From positions 49,241 to 113,240 of the forward strand of contig JAUIKY010000007.1 of NCBI GenBank assembly GCA_030430535.1: DNA of 64,000 bases, in the 5' to 3' direction. Below are positions 24,471 through 54,155 of the stretch, piece by piece; the first letter of the stretch is position 1; the number at the start of each line of letters is the position of its first letter. The position numbers and the translations under genes are program-made. The notes below the pieces were generated by a model, which ran no database searches, had not been told where the DNA came from, and saw nothing but the letters and a program-made list of their open reading frames with translations. The DNA is from Bacteroidia bacterium (GTDB lineage Bacteria; Bacteroidota; Bacteroidia; Flavobacteriales; Flavobacteriaceae).

Positions 24471-26651
24471 TTAGTTTTGTGCTGTGGTTTCTACATGGAT
24501 ATCGGTGCCCAATCGCTGTAAATAAGCGATAAGTGCCGTAATCTCTCTGTCTTTCATTTCAACAAATGGCTCTCCATTTTCAGCAGCGTATTTTTTGTCG
24601 GCTTCGTAGGCCTTCGCAAAATCGGGGTCGGTATAAAGGTTTTCTTCAATCTGTGCGCCTTGTGCCGTCATTTGCTCTTGGGCTTGGGCGATATCGTCTT
24701 CTGAATATGGAACACCCAAAGCTACCATTGCCTCCATTTTGGCTTCGGTTTGCGATTTATCCAATTTATTGGTAATCAGCCATTGGTAACGTGGCATGAT
24801 AGAACCCGAAGAGGTACTTTGCGGGTCGTACATGTGGTTGAAATGCCAGTTGTCTGAGTACTTGCCGCCAACACGGTGCAAATCGGGACCGGTACGTTTA
24901 CTGCCCCAAAGGAACGGGTGGTCATAAACAAATTCGCCTGCTTTTGAGTATTCGCCGTAGCGTTCTACCTCGCTCCTAAACGGACGTATCATTTGTGAGT
25001 GACAGCCCACACAACCTTCACGGATGTAAATATCGCGACCTTCCAATTCTAAAGGTGTATAAGGCTTTACGCTTGTAATGGTTGGGACATTCGATTTTAC
25101 CATTATGGTAGGTACAATTTGAATAACACCACCAATTAAAATAGCCACGGTAGCTAAAATGGTTAATTGAATAGGGCGACGCTCCAACCAAGTGTGCCAG
25201 CCTTCGTTAGCGGTTCTTCTTTTGCTAACGCGTTCTAAAGCGGGAGCTTCGGCCAGTTCGTTTTCAACAGCGCTACCTTGCTTGATGGTGACGATAACAT
25301 TATAAATCATAACTAACATGCCGATGATAAACAACGAACCTCCAATGGCACGCATCCAGTACATTGGTATGATTTCGGTAACGGTTTCTAAAAAGTTTCC
25401 GTAGGTAAGTGTACCGTCAGGATTGAATTGTTTCCACATACTGGCTTGGGTGAACCCGGCCACGTACATAGGCAAAGCGTACATAATGATACCCAATGTG
25501 CCAATCCAGAAATGCAGATTCGCCAATCCTAAAGAATAGAGTTTGGTTTTGAACAGTTTGGGCACTAAGTAATATATCATTCCGAAGGTTAAAAAGCCGT
25601 TCCAAGCCAGGGCACCAACATGCACGTGTGCAATAATCCAATCGGTAAAGTGGGCAATGGCATTTACGTTTTTAAGCGATAAAGTAGGACCTTCGAAGGT
25701 AGCCATACCGTAACCTGTAATAGCTACTACCATAAACTTTAAAACAGGGTCGGTGCGTACTTTATCCCAAGCACCGCGTAGGGTCAACAAACCGTTTATC
25801 ATACCGCCCCATGATGGCATTAGTAACATTACGGAAAACGCTACCCCTAAGTTTTGGGCCCATTCAGGCAAAGCGGTATATAATAAATGGTGCGGTCCGG
25901 CCCAGATATAAATAAAAATTAATGACCAAAAGTGAACAATGGACAGTCGGTACGAATACACCGGGCGATTTGCTGCTTTTGGAACGAAATAGTACATAAG
26001 CCCCAAAAACGGTGTGGTTAAAAAGAAAGCCACGGCGTTGTGTCCGTACCACCACTGAACCAAAGCGTCTTGCACACCGGCATAAACCGAGTAGCTTTTC
26101 AATCCGCTAACCGGAAGCTCCAAGCTATTGAAAATGTGCAGAACGGCCACAGTAACAAACGTGGCAAGGTAAAACCAAATGGCCACGTACAAATGGCGCT
26201 GTCTTCTTTTTAAAATCGTACCTATTAAGTTCCATCCAAAAACCACCCAAACTATGGCAATGGCAATATCTATCGGCCATTCCAGTTCGGCATATTCTTT
26301 TGACGAGGTGTAGCCCAAGGGTAAGGTTATGGCAGCAGCTACAATAATAAGCTGCCAGCCCCAAAAGTTTATTTTGCTTAGTACATCGCTAAACATTCGG
26401 GCTTTTAGTAATCGCTGGGTAGAGTAGTAAACCCCCGCAAAAATGGCGTTACCCACAAATGCAAAAATAACGGCATTGGTATGCAATGGGCGCAAACGCC
26501 CGAAACTGAGCCACGAGATGCCGTCGGTTAAATTGGGAAATAAAAACATGAAGGCCAGAAGTAAGCCCACCAACATACCTACCACGCCCCAAAGCATAGT
26601 GGCGTAAAGGAAATTTTTAACGATTTTGTTATCGTAATGAAACTGTTCCAT
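24471..26651 (-). CDS. ccoNO: Fused cbb3 oxidase catalytic subunits I and II (CcoNO)
   Basis: 726 residues. The CcoN part (about 1-480) has the heme/copper ligands HTNAVIFAF, WWYGHNAVAF, GPHHLLY and IIAHVHVGALAWNGF. The CcoO part (about 520-726) is anchored by a helix and carries a single c-heme, CVGCHSQMIRPF, plus the SIMPRYQWL Met ligand region. It reduces O2 to water at low oxygen and pumps protons in the inner membrane. The N-O fusion is the usual Bacteroidota form. The start overlaps the 3' end of ccoS by 23 bp. Confidence 0.96.
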   Translation of the reverse strand: MEQFHYDNKIVKNFLYATMLWGVVGMLVGLLLAFMFLFPNLTDGISWLSFGRLRPLHTNAVIFAFVGNAIFAGVYYSTQRLLKARMFSDVLSKINFWGWQLIIVAAAITLPLGYTSSKEYAELEWPIDIAIAIVWVVFGWNLIGTILKRRQRHLYVAIWFYLATFVTVAVLHIFNSLELPVSGLKSYSVYAGVQDALVQWWYGHNAVAFFLTTPFLGLMYYFVPKAANRPVYSYRLSIVHFWSLIFIYIWAGPHHLLYTALPEWAQNLGVAFSVMLLMPSWGGMINGLLTLRGAWDKVRTDPVLKFMVVAITGYGMATFEGPTLSLKNVNAIAHFTDWIIAHVHVGALAWNGFLTFGMIYYLVPKLFKTKLYSLGLANLHFWIGTLGIIMYALPMYVAGFTQASMWKQFNPDGTLTYGNFLETVTEIIPMYWMRAIGGSLFIIGMLVMIYNVIVTIKQGSAVENELAEAPALERVSKRRTANEGWHTWLERRPIQLTILATVAILIGGVIQIVPTIMVKSNVPTITSVKPYTPLELEGRDIYIREGCVGCHSQMIRPFRSEVERYGEYSKAGEFVYDHPFLWGSKRTGPDLHRVGGKYSDNWHFNHMYDPQSTSSGSIMPRYQWLITNKLDKSQTEAKMEAMVALGVPYSEDDIAQAQEQMTAQGAQIEENLYTDPDFAKAYEADKKYAAENGEPFVEMKDREITALIAYLQRLGTDIHVETTAQN

Positions 26652-26853
26652 TTGTGTGATTTTGGTTATTGTTCTTTTTGGTTTGTATTGTTTTTTTAGA
26701 ATCGGTTTTTACCAGTTCGTCCTCAAAAAGCATGCGTACCGATGGCGTGTAACCGTCATCGAATTGTCCTTTTTTTACGGCCATAATAAAGGCAATAAAG
26801 AAACCGATGGCCACAGCAATGCTTATAGCTAATAGAATATATATAACACTCAT
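26629..26853 (-). CDS. ccoS: cbb3 oxidase maturation protein CcoS
   Basis: 74 residues. One N-terminal transmembrane helix (VIYILLAISIAVAIGFFIAFI) is followed by the CcoS-typical KKGQFDDGYTPSVRMLFED. A Q/N/K-rich tail is encoded where the gene runs 23 bp into ccoNO. It is needed for metal cofactor insertion into cbb3 oxidase. It is the first gene of the ccoS-NO-Q-P-G unit, and its promoter carries the Fnr-type site. Confidence 0.93.
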   Translation of the reverse strand: MSVIYILLAISIAVAIGFFIAFIMAVKKGQFDDGYTPSVRMLFEDELVKTDSKKTIQTKKNNNQNHTNGTVSLR

Positions 26854-26873: not shown

Positions 26874-26917
26874 CAAAAGTACTTCCATCGCTTACCTTAA
26901 AAAATGACATTTGTCAT
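26874..26917 (-). promoter_or_regulatory. ccoS-ccoNO promoter: Fnr/Crp-type site plus -7 element
   Basis: The palindrome ATGACATTTGTCAT (26904-26917) and, on the minus strand, TACTTTTG (26874-26881), a perfect TAnnTTTG, have centres 33 bp apart. The predicted start of transcription near 26870 leaves a leader of about 17 bases before the ccoS ATG. This is the layout expected for class II activation by an Fnr-family protein. Confidence 0.7.
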
Positions 26918-26926
26918 GTTTCATTT

Positions 26927-29302
26927 TTATATCAGTTTTCTACCAATAACGTTAGTAGCAATGGTGGTAAAAAACACAATACTGATGGAACTTAAGGGCA
27001 TCAAAATGGCTGCAACTACCGGAGCCAATTGTCCGGTTATGGCAAAATAAAGTCCGATACAGTTGTAAATAAAAGAGAGCAAAAAGCTCCATTTGATGAT
27101 TTTTATGGCCGATTTCGAAACTTTTATATAGTTGTATAATTGGTTGAATTTTGAAGCATCCAAAATGGCGTCGCAAGCCGGTGAAAACACATTGACGTTT
27201 TCCGAAATGGCAATGCCTACATCGCTTTGTGCCAAGGCTCCGGCATCGTTCAGTCCATCGCCAACCATAAGCACTTTGGCACCTTCGGTTTGGTGGTGTT
27301 TAATGTATTCCAGTTTGTCCTCTGGTTTTTGATTAAAAATCAGTTTGGTTTTCGTGGGTAGCAGTTTGGTTAAGTTCTCCTTTTCCCCAGAATTATCGCC
27401 CGAAAGGATTACTAAATCGTATTCATTTTTCAGCTTATTGAACAATTTTGAAAGCCCTTTGCGGTAAGAGTTATAAAAGGTGAATTTACCTTTGTAAGTA
27501 TCGTTTGTTCTGATGTGTACGCTGGTATTGAGCGTGGCCGTTTCAGTATTGTGTCCAACAAAAGAAGCCGAGCCTATTTTAATATTTTGATTTTTGTATT
27601 TGGCTTCGATACCCTTGCCCAAATATTCGGTGTAATCATCTAAAGTTAAAATGTCGTTCTGGTTCAAAATTTGGTACAGCGAACGGCTCAGTGGGTGGTT
27701 GGAGCCCCGCAGGGTGCTTTTCAGTAAAGTTTCTTCTTCGTGGCTTAAATGTAAACCTTCGTAATCGATTCGGGTTTCCTTGTTGGCGGTAATGGTACCC
27801 GTTTTATCAAAAATGATGGTGTTTATTTTTGAAAGTTGCTCGATTACCGAAGCGTTTTTCAAATAGAATTTCTTTTTGCCCAAAATGCGCAAAATATTCC
27901 CTAAGGTAAATGGTGCCGCCAGTGCAATGGCACAGGGGCAAGCAATAATCAATACCGAAGTGAATACGTTTAAAGCTTTGCTGGAATCGGCCACCAACCA
28001 AAACACCGTGGCCAAAGCGGCGATGGATAAAATAGCCAGCGTAAAGTGTTTGCTAATGTTGTTGGTAATGTTGGTAAACGCCAGTTCTTTGTCCTTTTTA
28101 AATACATCGTTGCTCCACAATTGTGTGAGGTAACTTTGTTCGACCGATTTTAATACATCAACCTCTATGCTGCCATCTACTTGTTTTCCCCCAGCAAAAA
28201 GTTTGTCGCCCGATTGTTTCGATACGGTTTTCGATTCGCCTGTAACAAAACTATAGTCAATCCGAGCGTTTCCTTTTATCAAAATACAATCGACTGGGAT
28301 GAGTTCTTCGTTTCTAATCAGTAAGCGGTCGCCCTTTTTAATATCATAAACCTGAATAGATTCCTCTGTTCCGTTATCTAAAATTTTGGTGATTCCAATA
28401 GGGAAATATGATTTGTAATCGCGCTCGAACGACAAAAAAGAGTAGGTTTTCTGCTGAAAGAATTTGCCGAGCAAAAGGAAAAATACCAAGCCTGTTAAAC
28501 TATCGAAAAAGCCCGAACCCCAATCGAACATAATTTCCGCCGTGCTTCTTAAAAACAGTACCACAATACCCAAAGCAATGGGAACATCAATATTTAAAAT
28601 GTTCGACTTTAATCCTTTGTAGGCCGAAATAAAATAGTCTTGTGCGGAGTAAAACACCACCGGCACCGAAAAGGCAAACATAAGCCACCTAAACAGCGGT
28701 TTAAACTGTTCCAGCCAAAATTCGTCCACTTCAAAATATTCCGGAAACGATAAAAACATCACGTTTCCGAAGGCAAAACCCGCAATGCCCAATTTGTAAA
28801 TTAGCGAACGGTTTATCTGTTTTTTTCCAACACTGTAATCGTCCAAACTAATAAACGGTTCGTAACCAATTCGGCTTAACAGCAATACCAAATCTTTTAA
28901 CGATAAGGTTTCATATTGAAAAGTAACCCGAACGGTTTTCTTACCGAAATTGACGGTTGAAGCACTAATTGCCGGATTTAATTTGTTGAGGTTTTCCAGC
29001 ACCCAAATACAGGAACTGCAATGAATGTGCGGAATGTAAAGCGTAACAATTTGCGTGTCGTCACTGTTAAATTCTAATAATTGCTCAATGATTTTTTCGT
29101 TATCCAAAAAGTTGTATTTGCCTTCAACCTCTTTTGGCGTCGCTCCGGGGGCTTGTTGCAAATCGTAATAACAGGTGAGGTCGTTTTCTGAAAAAATCTG
29201 GTAAACCGTCTTACAGCCGTTGCAACAAAACGATTTGTCGTCAAAAACAATGTTGGAAGCAGTAGCGTCCAACCCACAGTGGAAACATGTGTGGTGTTCC
29301 AT
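26927..29302 (-). CDS. ccoI: Copper-translocating P-type ATPase for cbb3 assembly (CcoI/FixI)
   Basis: 791 residues. The N-terminal cysteine-rich metal-binding region (CFHCGLDA, CCNGCKTVY) is followed by an HMA-type segment (IHCSSCIWVLENL, about 90-105). Eight helices are expected; the transport motif CPCAIALAAP is in the sixth. The phosphorylation motif is DKTGTITANKET and the hinge is MVGDGLNDAGALAQSD. It exports copper across the inner membrane for the CuB site of cbb3 oxidase. It is monocistronic with its own Fnr-type promoter, placed just upstream of the ccoS unit. Confidence 0.95.
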   Translation of the reverse strand: MEHHTCFHCGLDATASNIVFDDKSFCCNGCKTVYQIFSENDLTCYYDLQQAPGATPKEVEGKYNFLDNEKIIEQLLEFNSDDTQIVTLYIPHIHCSSCIWVLENLNKLNPAISASTVNFGKKTVRVTFQYETLSLKDLVLLLSRIGYEPFISLDDYSVGKKQINRSLIYKLGIAGFAFGNVMFLSFPEYFEVDEFWLEQFKPLFRWLMFAFSVPVVFYSAQDYFISAYKGLKSNILNIDVPIALGIVVLFLRSTAEIMFDWGSGFFDSLTGLVFFLLLGKFFQQKTYSFLSFERDYKSYFPIGITKILDNGTEESIQVYDIKKGDRLLIRNEELIPVDCILIKGNARIDYSFVTGESKTVSKQSGDKLFAGGKQVDGSIEVDVLKSVEQSYLTQLWSNDVFKKDKELAFTNITNNISKHFTLAILSIAALATVFWLVADSSKALNVFTSVLIIACPCAIALAAPFTLGNILRILGKKKFYLKNASVIEQLSKINTIIFDKTGTITANKETRIDYEGLHLSHEEETLLKSTLRGSNHPLSRSLYQILNQNDILTLDDYTEYLGKGIEAKYKNQNIKIGSASFVGHNTETATLNTSVHIRTNDTYKGKFTFYNSYRKGLSKLFNKLKNEYDLVILSGDNSGEKENLTKLLPTKTKLIFNQKPEDKLEYIKHHQTEGAKVLMVGDGLNDAGALAQSDVGIAISENVNVFSPACDAILDASKFNQLYNYIKVSKSAIKIIKWSFLLSFIYNCIGLYFAITGQLAPVVAAILMPLSSISIVFFTTIATNVIGRKLI

Positions 29303-29327: not shown

Positions 29328-29371
29328 CAAAAGTCTAAAATTGGGAGGCTTTTATATATGATAATTGTCAT
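29328..29371 (-). promoter_or_regulatory. ccoI promoter: Fnr/Crp-type site plus -7 element
   Basis: ATGATAATTGTCAT (29358-29371) and, on the minus strand, GACTTTTG (29328-29335; one base off TAnnTTTG) have centres 33 bp apart. The predicted transcript starts about 22 bases before the ccoI ATG. The site is nearly symmetric, but no -7 element stands at the matching distance toward the kinase gene on the plus strand. Confidence 0.65.
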
Positions 29372-29512: not shown

Positions 29513-30757
29513 ATGTTTGGAAACGAAAAAGATGTGTTTAATGTGCTTTTTGAAGCCGTTTCAGAAGGTGTTATTGTGGTTGATAACCATCAAAAAATTG
29601 TAGCTGTTAATGCATCGGCAGGCCGTATGTTTGGTTATGAAAAACAGGAACTTTTGCACAAACCGCTTAGTATTTTAATTCCCCAAAGATATCAGACCAA
29701 CCATGCTAGCCATGTTGAAGGTTTTATGAAACAAAAGGAAAGCCGGCGGATGGGCCACGGTCGCGATTTGTACGGCGCAAAAAAAGACGGCAGCAGTTTT
29801 CCGGTTGAGGCGGGTTTAAATCCTATGGAGATTGATGGCGAATCGTACGTTATGGCTTTGGTTATCGATATTTCTGTGCGCAAGCAACAGGAATTGGAAT
29901 TACAGGAACTGAATACGGAATTGGAAAAGAAAGTTGAAGAACGTACCAAAGAGTTGAGCAATACGGTAAAAACCCTAAAAACGGTTAACCTTCAGCGCGA
30001 TGCGGAAATAAAAAAGCGTATCGAGGCACAAAATAAAACCAAGGAAGCTTTAAAAAAGGAAAAGGAATTGAATGAACTTAAAACCAAATTCCTGTCTTTG
30101 GTGTCTCACGAATTCAAAACCCCGTTGAGTGGTATTTTAACGTCGGCCATGTTGCTGGGAAAATATAAATTGGCCGAGCAACAGGAACGGCGCGACAAGC
30201 ACATCAAGACCATTTCAGACAAAGTAAGGTATTTAAATAGTATTTTAAACGATTTTCTTTCTATTGAAAAACTGGAAACCGGAAAGGTGAACTACAAATT
30301 TAGCACCTTTAAAATCAGTAAAGTCGTTAACGAGGTGGTGTACAATGCTAACATGCTTTTAAAAGAAGGGCAGACCATCAACTATCCCGAAAATATTGAA
30401 GATTATTCACTGTATCAGGATGAAAAAATAATAGAGTTGGCCTTATCCAATTTACTGCACAATGCCATTAAATATTCACCCGAAAATACTTTGGTCGATA
30501 TCGATATCAAACAGGGTGAAAGCCATACTGTTTTTAAAATAAAAGATAACGGTATTGGTATTCCGGAGAAAGACCAAAAACAAATTTTTAATCGTTATTT
30601 TAGAGCCGAAAACGCACTGTTAACACAAGGTACGGGCATTGGGCTTAATATTGTGAAAACCCATTTGGAGAACCTTGGAGGTAGCATAAGTTTTAAAAGT
30701 GAAGAAAATATAGGAACCGAGTTTACGATTACAATACCCAATAAAGCAAAACCCTAA
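29513..30757 (+). CDS. Soluble PAS-domain sensor histidine kinase, FixL-like heme-PAS candidate
   Basis: 414 residues without transmembrane helices. A PAS domain (about 8-125) is followed by a coiled coil (about 125-190). The dimerisation domain has His199 in LVSHEFKTPLSG. The HATPase_c domain has the N-box NLLHNAIKYS, G1 KDNGIGIPEKD and G2 GTGIGLNIVK. Within PAS, His64 (PQRYQTNHASHV) and Arg84 (MGHGRDLYG) align with the proximal heme His200 and the O2-contacting Arg220 of Bradyrhizobium FixL, with the same 20-residue spacing, and the following KKDGSSFPVE also matches. I infer an O2-sensing heme kinase. The response-regulator gene follows after 9 bp. Confidence 0.88.
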   Translation: MFGNEKDVFNVLFEAVSEGVIVVDNHQKIVAVNASAGRMFGYEKQELLHKPLSILIPQRYQTNHASHVEGFMKQKESRRMGHGRDLYGAKKDGSSFPVEAGLNPMEIDGESYVMALVIDISVRKQQELELQELNTELEKKVEERTKELSNTVKTLKTVNLQRDAEIKKRIEAQNKTKEALKKEKELNELKTKFLSLVSHEFKTPLSGILTSAMLLGKYKLAEQQERRDKHIKTISDKVRYLNSILNDFLSIEKLETGKVNYKFSTFKISKVVNEVVYNANMLLKEGQTINYPENIEDYSLYQDEKIIELALSNLLHNAIKYSPENTLVDIDIKQGESHTVFKIKDNGIGIPEKDQKQIFNRYFRAENALLTQGTGIGLNIVKTHLENLGGSISFKSEENIGTEFTITIPNKAKP

Positions 30758-30766
30758 AACCAACCA

Positions 30767-31819
30767 ATGAAAAAAGTATTATTGATAGAAGACGATATTA
30801 TTTTAAGGGAAAATACAGCGGAATTGTTAGAGCTGTCCGAATACCTGGTAACTACCGCTCCCAATGGAAAGCTTGGGGTAGAGGCGGCCAAAACCCATTT
30901 GCCCGATATTGTGGTTTGCGATATTATGATGCCCGAGTTGGATGGCTATGGCGTATTGGAAGCATTATCTAAAAATGATAGCACCAAGCATATTCCGTTT
31001 ATATTTCTTTCAGCAAAAACCGAGCGCAAAGATGTGCGCAAAGGCATGGATTTGGGGGCTGACGATTACATTACCAAACCTTTTGAGGAAGAAGAACTCA
31101 CTAGCGCCATTGAAAGCCGTTTGGCAAAAGCAGCCATTTTAAAAGAAAAAAGTGAAGAGCAGCAAGAAACTCAAGCTGACCAAGATGGAGAGTTGAGAAC
31201 ACTGAATGATTTAAAGAATTTTTTTGACGATAACGGCACTGAAATCGATTTTGAAAAAGGGCAGTTTGTTTATGAAGAAGGCGACCATTCCAATAATATG
31301 TATTTAATTTCCAGAGGACTTATAAAATGTCATAAACTGGATGAAAATGGAAAAGACCTTACCACGGCGCTTTATAAAGAGGACGATTTATTCGGTTATA
31401 CCACATTTACCCAAAATAACATATATCAAGAAACAGCCACGGCCATTGAACCCTCAAAACTTATAGCGCTCCCAAAAAGTGAACTTATAAAAGTGTTGGA
31501 TAGCAACCACAAAGTAACTTTTGAGCTTATCCAGTTGTTGACAGACGATCTCGCACACGTTAAAGATCAGTTGCTACAAATGGCTTACAGTTCTGTAAAA
31601 AAGCGAACGGCTTCAACCATTTTAGAGTTTGCCGAAAAACTGAACACAAAACCCAACCAAGCGATTAGGATTTCCAGGAACGACTTGGCCAGTGTGGCCG
31701 GAGTGGCTATTGAAAGTTTAATACGAACACTTTCTGGTTTTAAGGATCTAGGACTTATTGAAATTGAAGGCAGAAACATTAAAATTTTGGATATTGAAGG
31801 GCTTAAACAAATAAGTTAA
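30767..31819 (+). CDS. Response regulator with receiver fused to Crp/Fnr-type DNA-binding protein
   Basis: 350 residues. The receiver domain (about 1-122) has the acidic pair Asp9/Asp10, the phospho-acceptor Asp52 in VVCDIMMPELDG, and Lys in YITKPFEEEE. A linker of about 25 residues leads to a cyclic-nucleotide-binding-like fold (about 155-270; EEGDHSNNMYLISRGLIKC) and a Crp-type HTH (about 275-350; SRNDLASVAGVAIESLIRTLS). The recognition helix has Glu and Arg in E-S-L-I-R, suited to TGA/TCA half-sites. With the kinase it forms a two-component system in which the output domain is the FixK-like regulator itself. A REC-Crp fusion is uncommon. Neighbouring Fnr-type sites are the likely targets. 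Confidence 0.93.
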   Translation: MKKVLLIEDDIILRENTAELLELSEYLVTTAPNGKLGVEAAKTHLPDIVVCDIMMPELDGYGVLEALSKNDSTKHIPFIFLSAKTERKDVRKGMDLGADDYITKPFEEEELTSAIESRLAKAAILKEKSEEQQETQADQDGELRTLNDLKNFFDDNGTEIDFEKGQFVYEEGDHSNNMYLISRGLIKCHKLDENGKDLTTALYKEDDLFGYTTFTQNNIYQETATAIEPSKLIALPKSELIKVLDSNHKVTFELIQLLTDDLAHVKDQLLQMAYSSVKKRTASTILEFAEKLNTKPNQAIRISRNDLASVAGVAIESLIRTLSGFKDLGLIEIEGRNIKILDIEGLKQIS

Positions 31820-31838: not shown

Positions 31839-31882
31839 ATGATTTTGGTCATATTTCATTCTGCCACATGCCTTTATTTTTG
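31839..31882 (+). promoter_or_regulatory. usp promoter: Fnr/Crp-type site plus -7 element
   Basis: ATGATTTTGGTCAT (31839-31852) and TATTTTTG (31875-31882, a perfect TAnnTTTG) have centres 33 bp apart. The predicted transcript begins about 17 bases before the usp ATG at 31903. The element follows directly after the receiver-Crp gene, so this regulator's first neighbour is a likely target. Confidence 0.7.
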
Positions 31883-31902: not shown

Positions 31903-32742
31903 ATGAAGAATATTTTAATACCAACAGATTTTTCAGAAAATTCATGGAACGCCATCGAGTATGCCATCCAGTTTTTCAAGAAGTCGGCATGTAATTTTTA
32001 TTTGTTGCACGTTAACGCCGATGGTGCATTAAAAACCGATGATAGTTACTATGTACAGTACGAGAATGTTGGAGTTTCAACACTAAACAAACCTTCAAAA
32101 GAACTGTTAAAGGAAATGGTCGGGCGCATTTCTGAATGTTTTGCTAAAAATACAAACCATCGCTTTTTTACGCTCTCAGACAGTAATAATCTTATAGGCT
32201 CCATTCGCGAACATGTAGTAAAAAACAACATCGATTTAATCGTTATGGGCACCAAAGGGGCCTCAGGTATTAAAGGCTTAGCCATTGGTGGAAATACAGG
32301 GAACGTAATTACAAAGGTAAAGTGCACTACACTGGTTGTGCCCGAAAATGCCAAATATGTTTCGCCTAAAAATGTAGTGTTGCCTACCGATTTTTCAATT
32401 GAGTATAACCCAGATACCCTGCAGCCGTTGTTTGAGGTTTTAAAACAGCACCAAGGCAAAATAAATGTGTTGAATGTTAGTAAGCATACCCCAATCCTGA
32501 ACGAAGACCAAAAGCAAAATAAAGAGTTTTTAAGAGATTATTTTATGGGGCAGAAGCACGATTTCTACTTTTTGGCCCATAAACACATTGATTGTGCCGT
32601 ACAACAATTTGTAGATTTTAAGGATATAAGTTTAATATCTGTGTTGGCTAAAAATCTCAATTATCTACAACGGATTTTGTTCCAACCATCCATCGACAAA
32701 GTGAATTATTACAAAAACGTGCCTTTTTTGGTTTTGCACTAA
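31903..32742 (+). CDS. Universal stress protein with tandem Usp domains
   Basis: 279 residues. The first Usp domain (about 1-145) begins NILIPTDFSENSWNAIEYA and has the ATP-binding pattern VMGTKGASGIKGLAIGGNTGN. The second domain (about 150-279) starts VVLPTDFSIEYN and lacks a clear glycine motif. It is a paralogue of the Usp behind hemN. It has its own Fnr-type promoter between two Crp-family regulator genes, which points to a role under oxygen limitation. The stop codon lies inside a small hairpin. Confidence 0.9.
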   Translation: MKNILIPTDFSENSWNAIEYAIQFFKKSACNFYLLHVNADGALKTDDSYYVQYENVGVSTLNKPSKELLKEMVGRISECFAKNTNHRFFTLSDSNNLIGSIREHVVKNNIDLIVMGTKGASGIKGLAIGGNTGNVITKVKCTTLVVPENAKYVSPKNVVLPTDFSIEYNPDTLQPLFEVLKQHQGKINVLNVSKHTPILNEDQKQNKEFLRDYFMGQKHDFYFLAHKHIDCAVQQFVDFKDISLISVLAKNLNYLQRILFQPSIDKVNYYKNVPFLVLH

Positions 32743-32797: not shown

Positions 32798-33475
32798 ATG
32801 GGAAAATGTGAGCAATGCATAATCAAACAATTTAATGCTCTAAAATCTTTATCAAAAGAAGAGTTAATACGTGTTTCTAGCTGTAAAACCAGCAAAATCA
32901 TAAAAAAAGGCGAAGTTATTTTTGATGAAGGCGAAGCGGTTAACGGCGTTTTTTGTGTAAGGGACGGTATCTGTAAACTGTCGAAATTAAGTGAAAACGG
33001 AAAAGACCAAATTGTAAAAATGGTGGTAAAGGGCGATTTGCTGGGGCAGCGTTCATTGGTTTCGGTTGAAAATTCAAATCTTCAAGCTACAGCATTGACC
33101 GATATGAAGGTATGTTTTATTCCTAAAAGCGAAATAATAAACAGCTTGCAGAACAATCCGAAATTCTCGTTCGATGTGCTTCAGGAAATGGCGAGAGATT
33201 TAAAAGTTGCCGACGATTTTATTGTAAACATGGCACAAAAATCCGTTCGGCAACGTCTCGCGGAAACCCTTATATACATTCACGATAGCTTTGGCGTAAA
33301 CCCAGATAGAAGCCTTAGTGTGATGCTCTCTCGCGAAGATTATGCCAATATTGTGGGCACGGCCACAGAGTCTGCCATCCGTGTATTGTCACAGCTTAAA
33401 AAGGAAGGTCTTGTTTCCGCAAATGGTAAGCAAATAAAAATAGAAGACCTTGAAGGCTTAAAAAGGGTGAGGTAA
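32798..33475 (+). CDS. Fnr/Crp-family transcriptional regulator with N-terminal cysteines
   Basis: 225 residues. N-terminal Cys4, Cys7 and Cys29 (CEQC and VSSC), plus Cys53, Cys59 and one near 110, could ligate an iron-sulfur cluster as in Fnr, although the spacing differs from E. coli. A cNMP-binding-like barrel (about 25-125) and dimer helix are followed by a Crp-type HTH (about 155-225; SREDYANIVGTATESAIRVLS). The recognition helix E-S-A-I-R matches that of the receiver-Crp regulator 1 kb upstream. Both may therefore read the same ATGA-N6-TCAT sites. Oxygen sensing is an inference. Confidence 0.9.
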   Translation: MGKCEQCIIKQFNALKSLSKEELIRVSSCKTSKIIKKGEVIFDEGEAVNGVFCVRDGICKLSKLSENGKDQIVKMVVKGDLLGQRSLVSVENSNLQATALTDMKVCFIPKSEIINSLQNNPKFSFDVLQEMARDLKVADDFIVNMAQKSVRQRLAETLIYIHDSFGVNPDRSLSVMLSREDYANIVGTATESAIRVLSQLKKEGLVSANGKQIKIEDLEGLKRVR

Positions 33476-50716: not shown

Positions 50717-51097
50717 GCAAGTTTAGCTAGAGTGATAATGCAAATTATGAAATTAAATGAATTAATCAAATATGGGTTTATCCAGAAACTTTGCAATGTA
50801 GGTCTATATTTTGGTTTTGTATGGTGTATTTTTGCGAAAAACTTGCTAAAATTTTAAGAATTTAATAAAGTATTTCAGTTTGTGTTGGGTTCGTTGATGT
50901 TTTGTGTTTTTAAAATGTTAAATATTTGAATATTCTTTAAATCGAAATTCATTTTTCAAACGTTTTCGTAAAAAATTTAAGGTCGAATTTGTTTTTTGAT
51001 ATGGTTTAGCTGATAAAAGTCATCTTTTTAGAGCGTGTTGGGGTTTAATTTTATACCACGTTAACCACGAAAGGTTACAATATAAACAAAAGCAAAG
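50717..51097. other. Divergent intergenic region between fadD and pflB
   Basis: 381 AT-rich bases that contain the fadD promoter region and, at 51010-51053, the Fnr-type pflB promoter. No gene-like frame with family character was seen. Confidence 0.55.
51010..51053 (+). promoter_or_regulatory. pflB promoter: Fnr/Crp-type site plus -7 element
   Basis: CTGATAAAAGTCAT (51010-51023) has the TGA-N6-TCA core, and TAATTTTA (51046-51053) differs from TAnnTTTG in one base. Their centres are 33 bp apart, as at the four other sites. The leader before the pflB ATG would be about 41 bases. Confidence 0.6.
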
Positions 51098-53323
51098 ATG
51101 GAAGTAAAGCAATTTAAACCTGGAATTTGGACAGACAAAATCGACGTAAGGGATTTTGTTGTTAACAATGTAACGCCTTACCACGGGAATCACCAATTTT
51201 TGGTTGGCCCCAGTGTAAAAACCCAAAAATTATGGGATGTATGTAAAGAAGCGACGAAACTTGAAAGGAAAAATAACGGTGTACTTGCTTTGGATACCGA
51301 TGTAATTTCTACAATTAGTGCTTTTGATGCCGGTTATATCGATAAAGAGAACGAAGTTATTGTTGGCTTGCAGACCGACCAATTGCTCAAAAGAACCATG
51401 AAGCCTTTTGGTGGATTTAAAGTGGTGCAAAAAGCACTGTCTGAGCAAGGCTTAAAACCCAATGACAATCTTACCGAGTTGTTTTCAAAATATGTTAAAA
51501 CGCATAACGATGGGGTATTTTCGGCGTATAACGATGAAATTAAAAAGTTCCGCTCGCTTGGCTTTTTAACGGGACTGCCAGATAATTATGCACGAGGGCG
51601 TATTATTGGTGATTACCGTCGTGTAGCACTTTATGGAATAGATTTTTTAATTGCTTCAAAAAAAGAAGATTTGGCCAAAATTAATGGCCCGATGACCGAT
51701 GCCGTTATCCGTCTGCGAGAAGAAGTTTCAGATCAAATTAAAGCACTCAGGGAAATGATTGAGTTGGGAGCTAAGTATGATTTAGATTTAGGCCGTCCGG
51801 CAGAAAATGCCAAAGAAGCAGTGCAGTGGACTTATATGGCTTATTTGGCTGCGGTTAAAGAACAGGATGGAGCGGCCATGTCGTTAGGAAATGTTTCAAC
51901 CTTCCTTGATATATATATTGAAAACGACCTTCAGGATGGATTTATTACTGAAAATGAAGCCCAAGAGTATATCGACCAGTTTGTAATGAAATTGCGTATG
52001 GTGCGCCATTTAAGAATGGCTGCCTATGATGAGATCTTTGCTGGTGACCCCACTTGGGTTACCGAAGCCATTGGCGGTATGTTTGAAGATGGAAGAACAA
52101 AAGTTACCAAAACTTCTTTCCGTTTTCTGAATACACTATATAATTTAGGGCCTTCACCAGAACCCAACATGACGGTGCTTTGGTCTAAACATTTGCCAGA
52201 AAACTTTAAAAATTATTGTGCCAAAGTAGCTATCGACACGTCATCAATTCAATTTGAAAATGATGAATTGATGCGTACTATTCGAGGTAATGACGATTAT
52301 GGTATTGCTTGTTGCGTGTCTTACCAAGCACTTGGTAAATCCATTCAGTTTTTTGGTGCACGAACCAATTTGGCAAAAACCTTATTGCTAGCCATTAATG
52401 GCGGGAGATGCGAAATTACAGGAACCCAAATGGTAGGCGGTATTGAACCATGCAATTGCGAGTATTTAGACTTCGATAAGGTAATGGCCAATTTTAAAAT
52501 AGCCATGAAAGAAGTAGCTCGTGTGTACAACGATTCTATGAATATTATCCACTACATGCACGACAAATACTATTACGAAAAAGCCCAAATGGCATTGATT
52601 GATACCAACCCAAGTATTAATATTGCCTATGGTATTGCAGGTTTGTCCATTGTTGCAGATTCGTTATCGGCTATAAAATATGCCAAGGTTAAGCCCATAA
52701 GAAATGAAGAAGGGTTAACGGTTGATTTTAAAATAGAGGGCGAATTCCCATGTTATGGCAATGATGACGACCGAGTGGATGCATTAGCGGCAAATGCAGT
52801 GGCCGATTTTAATAACGAACTTAAAAAGTTGCCGGTATATAAAAATGCTTATCCCACACTATCTGTACTCACCATCACCTCGAACGTGGTATACGGTAAA
52901 AAAACTGGAGCCACTCCAGATGGAAGGGAAAAAGGCGTTCCGTTTGCACCTGGAGCCAACCCTATGCATGGAAGGGATTCGCACGGAGCGATAGCTTCTT
53001 TAAACTCAGTTGCAAAAATCAATTATGAAGATTCTCAAGATGGTATTTCCAACACCTTTTCTATTGTTCCCAAATCTTTAGGAGCAAATAGTGAGGAGAG
53101 AATAGAAAATATGGTGGATATTTTAGATGGTTATTTCTCCAGAAAAGCACAACATATTAATGTTAATGTGTTGGATAAGGAAACTTTGCTCGATGCGATG
53201 GAGCACCCCGAGGAATATCCGCAGTTAACCATTCGCGTATCTGGTTATGCCGTAAATTTTGTTAGGCTTACCAGAGAACAGCAAATGGAAGTTATAACAA
53301 GATCGTTTCACGAGTCTATTTGA
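51098..53323 (+). CDS. pflB: Pyruvate formate-lyase (formate C-acetyltransferase)
   Basis: 741 residues. The adjacent catalytic cysteines are in [14 protein letters not shown] (near residue 410) and the C-terminal glycyl-radical loop is [12 protein letters not shown] (near 715). Both identify a true PFL and not a diol dehydratase or a choline-lyase relative, which lack the Cys-Cys pair. It converts pyruvate plus CoA to acetyl-CoA and formate under anoxia; the radical is O2-sensitive. It has its own Fnr-type promoter. The activase gene follows, separated by a strong hairpin. Confidence 0.96.
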
Positions 53324-53423: not shown

Positions 53424-54155
53424 ATATTAAGAGTACACTCAATAGAGTCTTTCGGTACGCACGACGGCCCTGGGATAAGGATGGTGGTGTTTTTGCAAGG
53501 TTGCAATCTAAAATGCCTGTACTGCCATAATCCAGACACCATCGATAAATGCGGAGGAAAAGAAATTCATATTGATGAATTGGTACAAAAGGCTATCAAT
53601 TTGAAATCTTATTTCGGCAAAAGAGGCGGGGTAACCGTATCTGGTGGTGAGCCGCTGCTGCAATCCAAAGCGTTGCTGATTTTTTTTAAACGCTTAAAGG
53701 CGGAAGGCATCCACACCAATGTCGATACCAATGGCAGGATTTTAAACCATTTTACTGAAGATTTATTGGATAATTACGCCGATCTGGTAATGCTAGATAT
53801 TAAACATGTTACAGAGCAGGGCTATCAATTTTTAGTAGGGCAGAAAAACAAAGAAACCAGTTTTGAGTTTGCCAAGCACAGAGAGGCTTCAGGAAAAAAA
53901 ATGTGGTTGCGTTATGTGCTCATTCCGGGGATAACCAATAAACCCGAGTTGCTCCATCAGTTAGGCGACCACTTTAAAGATTATAAAACCATTGAAAAGA
54001 TTGAAATTCAACCTTACCATAAATTGGGAATCCATAAGTGGGAAGCTCTTGGTTGGAATTACGAATTAAAAGATGCCAGAGAGAACACAAAAGAGGAAAT
54101 TGATGCTGCAGCAGAAATCTTAAAAAACTATTTCAGGGAAGTGAAAGTAAATTAG
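53424..54155 (+). CDS. pflA: Pyruvate formate-lyase activating enzyme (radical SAM)
   Basis: About 243 residues. The radical-SAM cluster motif is CNLKCLYCHNPD and the glycine-rich SAM site is GGVTVSGGEPLLQ. Conserved family sequence starts well before the first ATG at 53481 (ILRVHSIESFGTHDGPGIR), and the frame is open back to a stop at 53391 with no ATG, GTG or TTG. The residue where homologues have their initiator Met is ATA at 53424, which I take as the likely start. Starting at 53481 would remove the first strand of the barrel. It installs the glycyl radical in PflB. Confidence 0.85.
   Translation: MLRVHSIESFGTHDGPGIRMVVFLQGCNLKCLYCHNPDTIDKCGGKEIHIDELVQKAINLKSYFGKRGGVTVSGGEPLLQSKALLIFFKRLKAEGIHTNVDTNGRILNHFTEDLLDNYADLVMLDIKHVTEQGYQFLVGQKNKETSFEFAKHREASGKKMWLRYVLIPGITNKPELLHQLGDHFKDYKTIEKIEIQPYHKLGIHKWEALGWNYELKDARENTKEEIDAAAEILKNYFREVKVN

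Follow-up and report, generated by a model that had tools for sequence, protein, structure and literature searches.

Does the two-gene pair beside the cbb3 oxidase genes of this Flavobacteriaceae genome form a shortened FixL-FixJ-FixK circuit, in which the response regulator is itself a Crp/Fnr-type activator, and what would such a circuit sense and switch on? The DNA analysed (the window) is 64,000 nucleotides long and comes from a genome of 3.6 Mb in 110 contigs. Both genes of the pair are on the plus strand. The first (29513..30757) encodes a sensor kinase of 414 residues with Pfam matches to PAS (2.9e-13), HisKA and HATPase_c; its PAS domain is N-terminal (29513..29908), and its phospho-acceptor His199 is encoded at 30107-30109. 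The second (30767..31819) starts 9 bases after the kinase stop and encodes a regulator of 350 residues, in which Response_reg (6.5e-28) is followed by a cNMP_binding barrel (PF00027, 1.2e-16) and HTH_Crp_2 (PF13545, 9.7e-14). The barrel and the Crp HTH together place the regulator in the Crp/Fnr superfamily. Open reading frames and domains thus agree with the original prediction, which had described a PAS-HisKA-HATPase kinase followed after nine bases by a receiver-barrel-Crp protein. It had also named Asp52 as the site of a full receiver, and the codon at 30920-30922 is indeed that of Asp; this residue, together with Glu8, Asp9 and Lys104, is invariant in 29/29 aligned regulators (the window and 28 of 60), just as His199 is in 36/36 aligned kinases (the window and 35 of 59 paired kinases). 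The structure model of the receiver-Crp protein has weak interdomain confidence (pTM 0.39). Among the 50 structure-search matches listed per query, which were kinases, Crp structures and phytochromes, there was no full-length receiver-Crp match.

The receiver-Crp fusion is a common, conserved Bacteroidota family: at E ≤ 1e-60 it is present in 66 of the 149 Flavobacteriaceae genomes, and at E ≤ 1e-55 in 43 of 296 genomes taken phylum-wide. A survey of the gene pair had been proposed as one check on the original prediction, and its outcome is favourable. Of 60 loci of 20 kb each, 59 have a kinase gene immediately before the regulator gene and in the same orientation, the exception (L103) having a divergent kinase; in named genomes, 76 of 77 loci show the kinase upstream, three of 80 having been excluded as too short. 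Since the arrangement is kept to this extent in relatives, the pairing is more than chance. The nearest named relative of the regulator among the matches listed is from Tamlana crocina (92% identity). Annotations among the at least 120 relatives listed include ‘response regulator’, ‘transcriptional regulator’, ‘DNA-binding response OmpR family regulator’ and ‘CheY-like chemotaxis protein’; one of those listed is called ‘CRP-like cAMP-binding protein/CheY-like chemotaxis protein’, which means that at least one automatic annotation has recorded the fusion.

Next to the pair, on the opposite strand, lie ccoI, ccoS, a fused ccoNO, ccoP and ccoG, which bears out the expectation that cbb3 and copper-ATPase genes adjoin it. 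The fused ccoNO (24471..26651, minus strand) encodes cbb3 oxidase subunits I/II, ccoS occupies 26629..26853 (minus), and the CcoI-like heavy-metal P-type ATPase (26927..29302, minus) takes its name from position and similarity; ccoP and ccoG were named by reading the ORF listing. On the plus strand, the pair is followed by a universal stress protein gene, usp (31903..32742, domain match), and by a gene for a second, Fnr-like Crp/Fnr protein without a receiver (32798..33475). The latter has four Cys kept in 7/7 copies, two near the N-terminus and two in the barrel; the spacing of the Cys residues in E. coli FNR is different. Across relatives, cbb3 structural genes were found in 13 of 60 loci (20 kb), and the most constant neighbour is usp, found within 600 bp in all but two (L072 and L095) of 41 loci, which leaves a set of 39. 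At least two usp genes are present in 28 of 40 Flavobacteriaceae loci, and arrays of four to nine lie less than 10 kb from the pair in L067-L069, L082-L084 and L093, recalling the hypoxia-induced usp genes that exist in other bacteria. The wide spread of the pair, the constancy of usp and an Fnr-like protein that seems to act at the same DNA box (see below) are the points that go beyond the original prediction.

Motif discovery in the intergenic DNA of 40 Flavobacteriaceae loci (of 60) and the window returned, de novo, the palindrome ATGAT-N4-ATCAT, with 41 of its 43 occurrences intergenic and sites about 50 bp before usp. The strict site is present in 25 of the 39 usp promoters, and its distance to TAnnTTTG, which we take to be the Bacteroidetes -7 element, is identical to the base. 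Relaxed to HTGAY-N4-RTCAT (first base A, C or T), the pattern fits all 39 usp promoters, with at least four of six element positions at the fixed distance. The spacing is sharply defined: of the 318 site-directions in 40 loci, 68 have a perfect element 22 bp after the box, and no other distance between 5 and 59 accounts for more than two. If transcription begins 5–6 bp after the -7 element, the box centre would fall near -41.5, the position of a class II activator. On this pattern, HTGAY-N4-RTCAT is the likely DNA site of the receiver-Crp regulator. Where the recognition helix has Ile (55 loci), ATGAY-type sites outnumber TTGAY-type sites by 112 to 15. A change in that helix (FNR-like ETVSR versus ESLIR) was considered as the source of the TTGA/ATGA difference and dropped, the four loci with the FNR-like helix having no TTGA and six ATGA sites.

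Without its -7 element the box is a poor guide. The bare 16-bp form occurs four times in the window’s genome, against five and one for controls, and the bare 14-bp form 21 times against 12, three of the 21 within the cco-regulator cluster; since neither is clearly enriched, many bare matches there are chance. Plain 16-bp counts likewise discriminate genomes less well than box and -7 element together: the 66 genomes that have the regulator gave 1023 against 565 and 315 for controls, and the 83 that lack it 873 against 793 and 485.

Four class II promoters are predicted in the window: that of ccoS-ccoNO (26874..26917, minus; ATGACAAATGTCAT-N22-TACTTTTG), that of ccoI (29328..29371, minus; ATGACAATTATCAT-N22-GACTTTTG, five of six -7 positions), that of usp (31839..31882, plus; ATGATTTTGGTCAT-N22-TATTTTTG) and that of pflB (51010..51053, plus; CTGATAAAAGTCAT-N22-TAATTTTA, again five of six). 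The last belongs to a pair some 20 kb from the regulator, with the box at the exact -7 spacing: pyruvate formate-lyase pflB (51098..53323, plus; TIGR01255) and its activating enzyme pflA (53481..54155, plus; TIGR02493), both above cut-off. Elsewhere in the genome, promoters with a perfect element precede copper nitrite reductase nirK and phosphate acetyltransferase pta, and also genes for a thioredoxin-like protein, a NeuD-type acetyltransferase and a 608-residue protein without a Pfam match. In this last gene (L144:2924-4747), called start and predicted -7 element overlap, and the true start is probably further downstream. With one -7 mismatch come citrate-transporter-, TonB- and CBS-type genes, which have no evident oxygen link; a strict box also stands 59 bp before the gene for a B12-dependent ribonucleotide reductase, but a fitting element is missing at the required distance, and some boxes are intragenic. 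The pflB product is an oxygen-sensitive enzyme, and the pflB box recurs at the exact spacing, with G also allowed as its last base, in 15 of the 21 genomes with a close pflB; given this conservation, the cue to which the box responds is likely to be low oxygen. Fourteen of these 15 genomes have the Fnr-like protein (seven of them without receiver-Crp) and one has receiver-Crp only.

How might such a cue reach the kinase? By sequence, the closest solved structures to its PAS domain are FixL (1.4e-15) and then DosP (2.8e-12), the next ones, a blue-light photoreceptor (4.6e-7) and another kinase PAS (8.6e-7), being far weaker. His64 (codon 29702-29704) and Arg84 (codon 29762-29764) had been noted as spaced like a FixL pair, and the alignment with Bradyrhizobium FixL supports this: without a gap, the two fall on its proximal His and distal Arg, 20 apart, which we take to be His200 of helix F and Arg220. 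His64 stands at the start of a predicted helix (64-74) and belongs to a set of seven PAS-region residues that never vary in the 36 aligned kinases. Of 136 partner kinases, 125 have its equivalent, as judged with a profile built without L095, L104, L108, L120 and L121; the remaining 11, one of them cut by a contig end, show no His PAS. DosP, the heme-PAS phosphodiesterase of E. coli, is alike in its PAS domain and presumably in having His and Arg 20 apart, and unlike in its output domain, which is a kinase here. The position of what we assume to be its Met ligand is occupied by His82, which is variable in relatives. The PAS domain is predicted to hold heme on His64.

The same circuit and box could nevertheless work with a PAS domain that has no heme and senses another respiration-linked signal, such as redox state, flavin or a metabolite, which would make the system a general energy or stress switch in keeping with its usp targets. 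Arg84 has an equivalent in 83 of the 125 His-bearing partner kinases; the other 42 have L, M, T, K or a different residue instead. L085, whose pair adjoins cbb3, also lacks this Arg. Three further FixL residues which we take to line the heme pocket, R206, I215 and L236, are G70, R79 and A100 here by alignment, and are likewise not conserved among the aligned Flavobacteriaceae kinases. Nor does the kinase reach the NCBIfam FixL equivalog NF041777 (99 bits against a cut-off of 850). As the Arg is so often replaced in relatives, the His/Arg pair is thin evidence for heme; His-bearing PAS domains similar to this one are probably common, and His64-x19-Arg84 is by itself insufficient as proof of heme or O2 sensing. 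A search for PAS paralogues in the same genome, meant as a background for the pair, returned solely the query PAS. A heme-free sensor would also suit the prevalence of usp over cbb3 structural genes around the pair, the additional PAS-like stretches of the longer partner kinases, and the boxes before TonB-, citrate-transporter- and CBS-type genes. It sits less well with the invariance of His64, with the lead of FixL and DosP over the next solved PAS domains, and with nirK, pflB and pta among the targets. Furthermore, the FixL distal motif [IV]IGIGR is present in six of the 136 partner kinases (L105, L110, L112, L117, L118 and L240), of which four also have R206. The L112 kinase is identical to that of Mucilaginibacter sp. 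MD40, some listed relatives of which are annotated ‘Sensor protein FixL’, and its locus is beside cbb3. These six kinases mean that a FixL-like kinase does accompany the receiver-Crp regulator in other Bacteroidota. In a tree of 51 of the collected receiver-Crp proteins, the FixL-motif kinases need three label changes, with the deep forks open. On balance, we regard heme-free sensing as a serious possibility that falls somewhat short of an even chance.

Which protein reads the box can be approached by counting promoters (box with -7 element), of which 149 genomes contain 836, against two for a reversed-pattern control. In counts over related genomes, kinship being ignored, the mean per genome is 10.5 where both receiver-Crp and the Fnr-like protein are present (36/36 with at least one promoter), 7.1 with receiver-Crp only (30/30), 4.3 with the Fnr-like protein only (50/52) and 0.65 with neither (8/31). 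Presence of the Fnr-like protein was set at E ≤ 1e-60. Eleven genomes with weaker matches (between 1e-30 and 1e-60) were scored as lacking it, and without them the means become 10.5, 6.7, 4.3 and 0.56, promoters being present in 23 of 23 receiver-Crp-only genomes. Four genomes with distant receiver-Crp relatives only (E about 1e-80 to 1e-87) were scored as having the regulator, and the counts were recomputed for this as well. The contrast persists among genomes of 2.8–3.6 Mb, and z = 9.5 with genome size in the model. Because each protein alone predicts the box, binding by both is the simplest explanation, and the box thus appears to be common to the receiver-Crp regulator and its Fnr-like neighbour. 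As Fnr-like-only genomes carry promoters too, the box alone cannot tell which of the two acts at cbb3 or pflB.

These counts also bear on two other arrangements. The pair might work as a classical FixL-FixJ-FixK cascade, in which receiver-Crp merely raises expression of the Fnr-like gene (32798..33475). That gene is the second one downstream, and the accessible text of PMC7888657 describes hFixL-FxkR-FixK as priming fnrN in Rhizobium leguminosarum. The box, however, lies directly before ccoS, ccoI, usp and pflB, and promoters are kept in all 30 receiver-Crp genomes without a close Fnr-like protein, so we judge this cascade very unlikely. That the Fnr-like protein alone reads the box and receiver-Crp binds other DNA is highly improbable: Fnr-like-only genomes do carry promoters, and in the window the cluster includes the Fnr-like gene, but promoters are also present in the receiver-Crp genomes without a close Fnr-like protein, both with weak matches excluded and when size-matched, against few genomes with neither, and the box is present at 39/39 usp genes downstream of receiver-Crp.

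We return to the reading in which receiver-Crp acts at the box directly, and consider it quite probable that a PAS kinase controls the cbb3, copper-ATPase, usp and pflB genes through a phosphorylated Crp/Fnr-type activator and HTGAY-N4-RTCAT boxes. The kinase would likely phosphorylate the receiver; phosphorylation of Asp52 would make the activator dimer bind the predicted boxes; and binding about 41–42 bp upstream of the start site would activate by a class II contact with RNA polymerase, switching on these and other low-oxygen genes. Domains, key catalytic residues, pairing, box, fixed -7 distance and, across genomes, the association between regulator and box number are the sequence-based parts of this scheme. 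The signal would be low oxygen, and sharing of the box with the Fnr-like protein next door would let two sensors converge on one element. The fuller version is a one-step FixL circuit of Bacteroidota: a heme-PAS kinase phosphorylates a receiver-Fnr protein, which competes or cooperates with an Fnr-like oxygen sensor at one box to control cbb3, copper assembly, usp and fermentation, the sensor half having diversified while receiver-Fnr and box were kept. This version we hold tentatively, at only just under even.

Comparison with the rhizobial FixL-FixJ-FixK system shows both likeness and difference. Shared are a PAS kinase, a receiver, a Crp-type activator, and cbb3 and CcoI as targets. First, however, receiver and activator are here one protein, whose HTH is HTH_Crp_2, and there is no NarL/LuxR-type FixJ. 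Second, the predicted palindromic box lies before cbb3 and anaerobic genes at the class II distance of FixK and FNR (start sites being deduced from the -7 element), but its prevailing form across the 55 loci is ATGAY-type, rather than the rhizobial anaerobox TTGAT-N4-ATCAA. Third, heme is only predicted here. With FNR and FixK2, the regulator shares the effector barrel, HTH_Crp and class II promoter geometry; it differs in taking its input from an N-terminal receiver, and the N-terminal Fe-S motif of FNR is absent from its 350 residues, which include two Cys only (51 and about 187). The roles of FixJ and FixK are thus plausibly merged, as the original prediction proposed. The shortened circuit is well grounded, given a receiver and a FixK/Fnr-like activator in one protein, the pairing with a PAS kinase and the putative box before cbb3 and ccoI, among other low-oxygen genes; the claim of a FixL-like sensor fared less well, for the reasons of the distal Arg and the pocket residues given above.

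The closest arrangement we found described, as far as the accessible text of PMC7888657 goes, is that of R. leguminosarum, where hFixL-FxkR-FixK and FnrN bring two oxygen inputs together on the anaerobox, and so, as proposed here, on one Crp/Fnr-type box. There, according to the same text, the response regulator, FxkR, is a protein of its own that drives fixK transcription, whereas here the response regulator is the Crp-type activator. This, and the different box, is what is new relative to the rhizobial scheme. Narrow multi-term queries of the open-access literature returned no recognisable paper on the receiver-Crp regulator or the HTGAY-N4-RTCAT box, and little on the link between oxygen and respiration in Bacteroidota. 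A defined pair, a defined box and a short target list offer a directly testable system. If true, gating of a Crp/Fnr activator by phosphorylation would be an unusual control mode for a large regulator family, and two regulators at one box would be a clean example of signal convergence at DNA.

A second receiver-Crp clade in Flavobacteriaceae (L108, L119, L120 and L121) lies beside longer kinases of 676 to 1109 residues, and its loci contain three to six ATGAY-N4-RTCAT sites per 20 kb.
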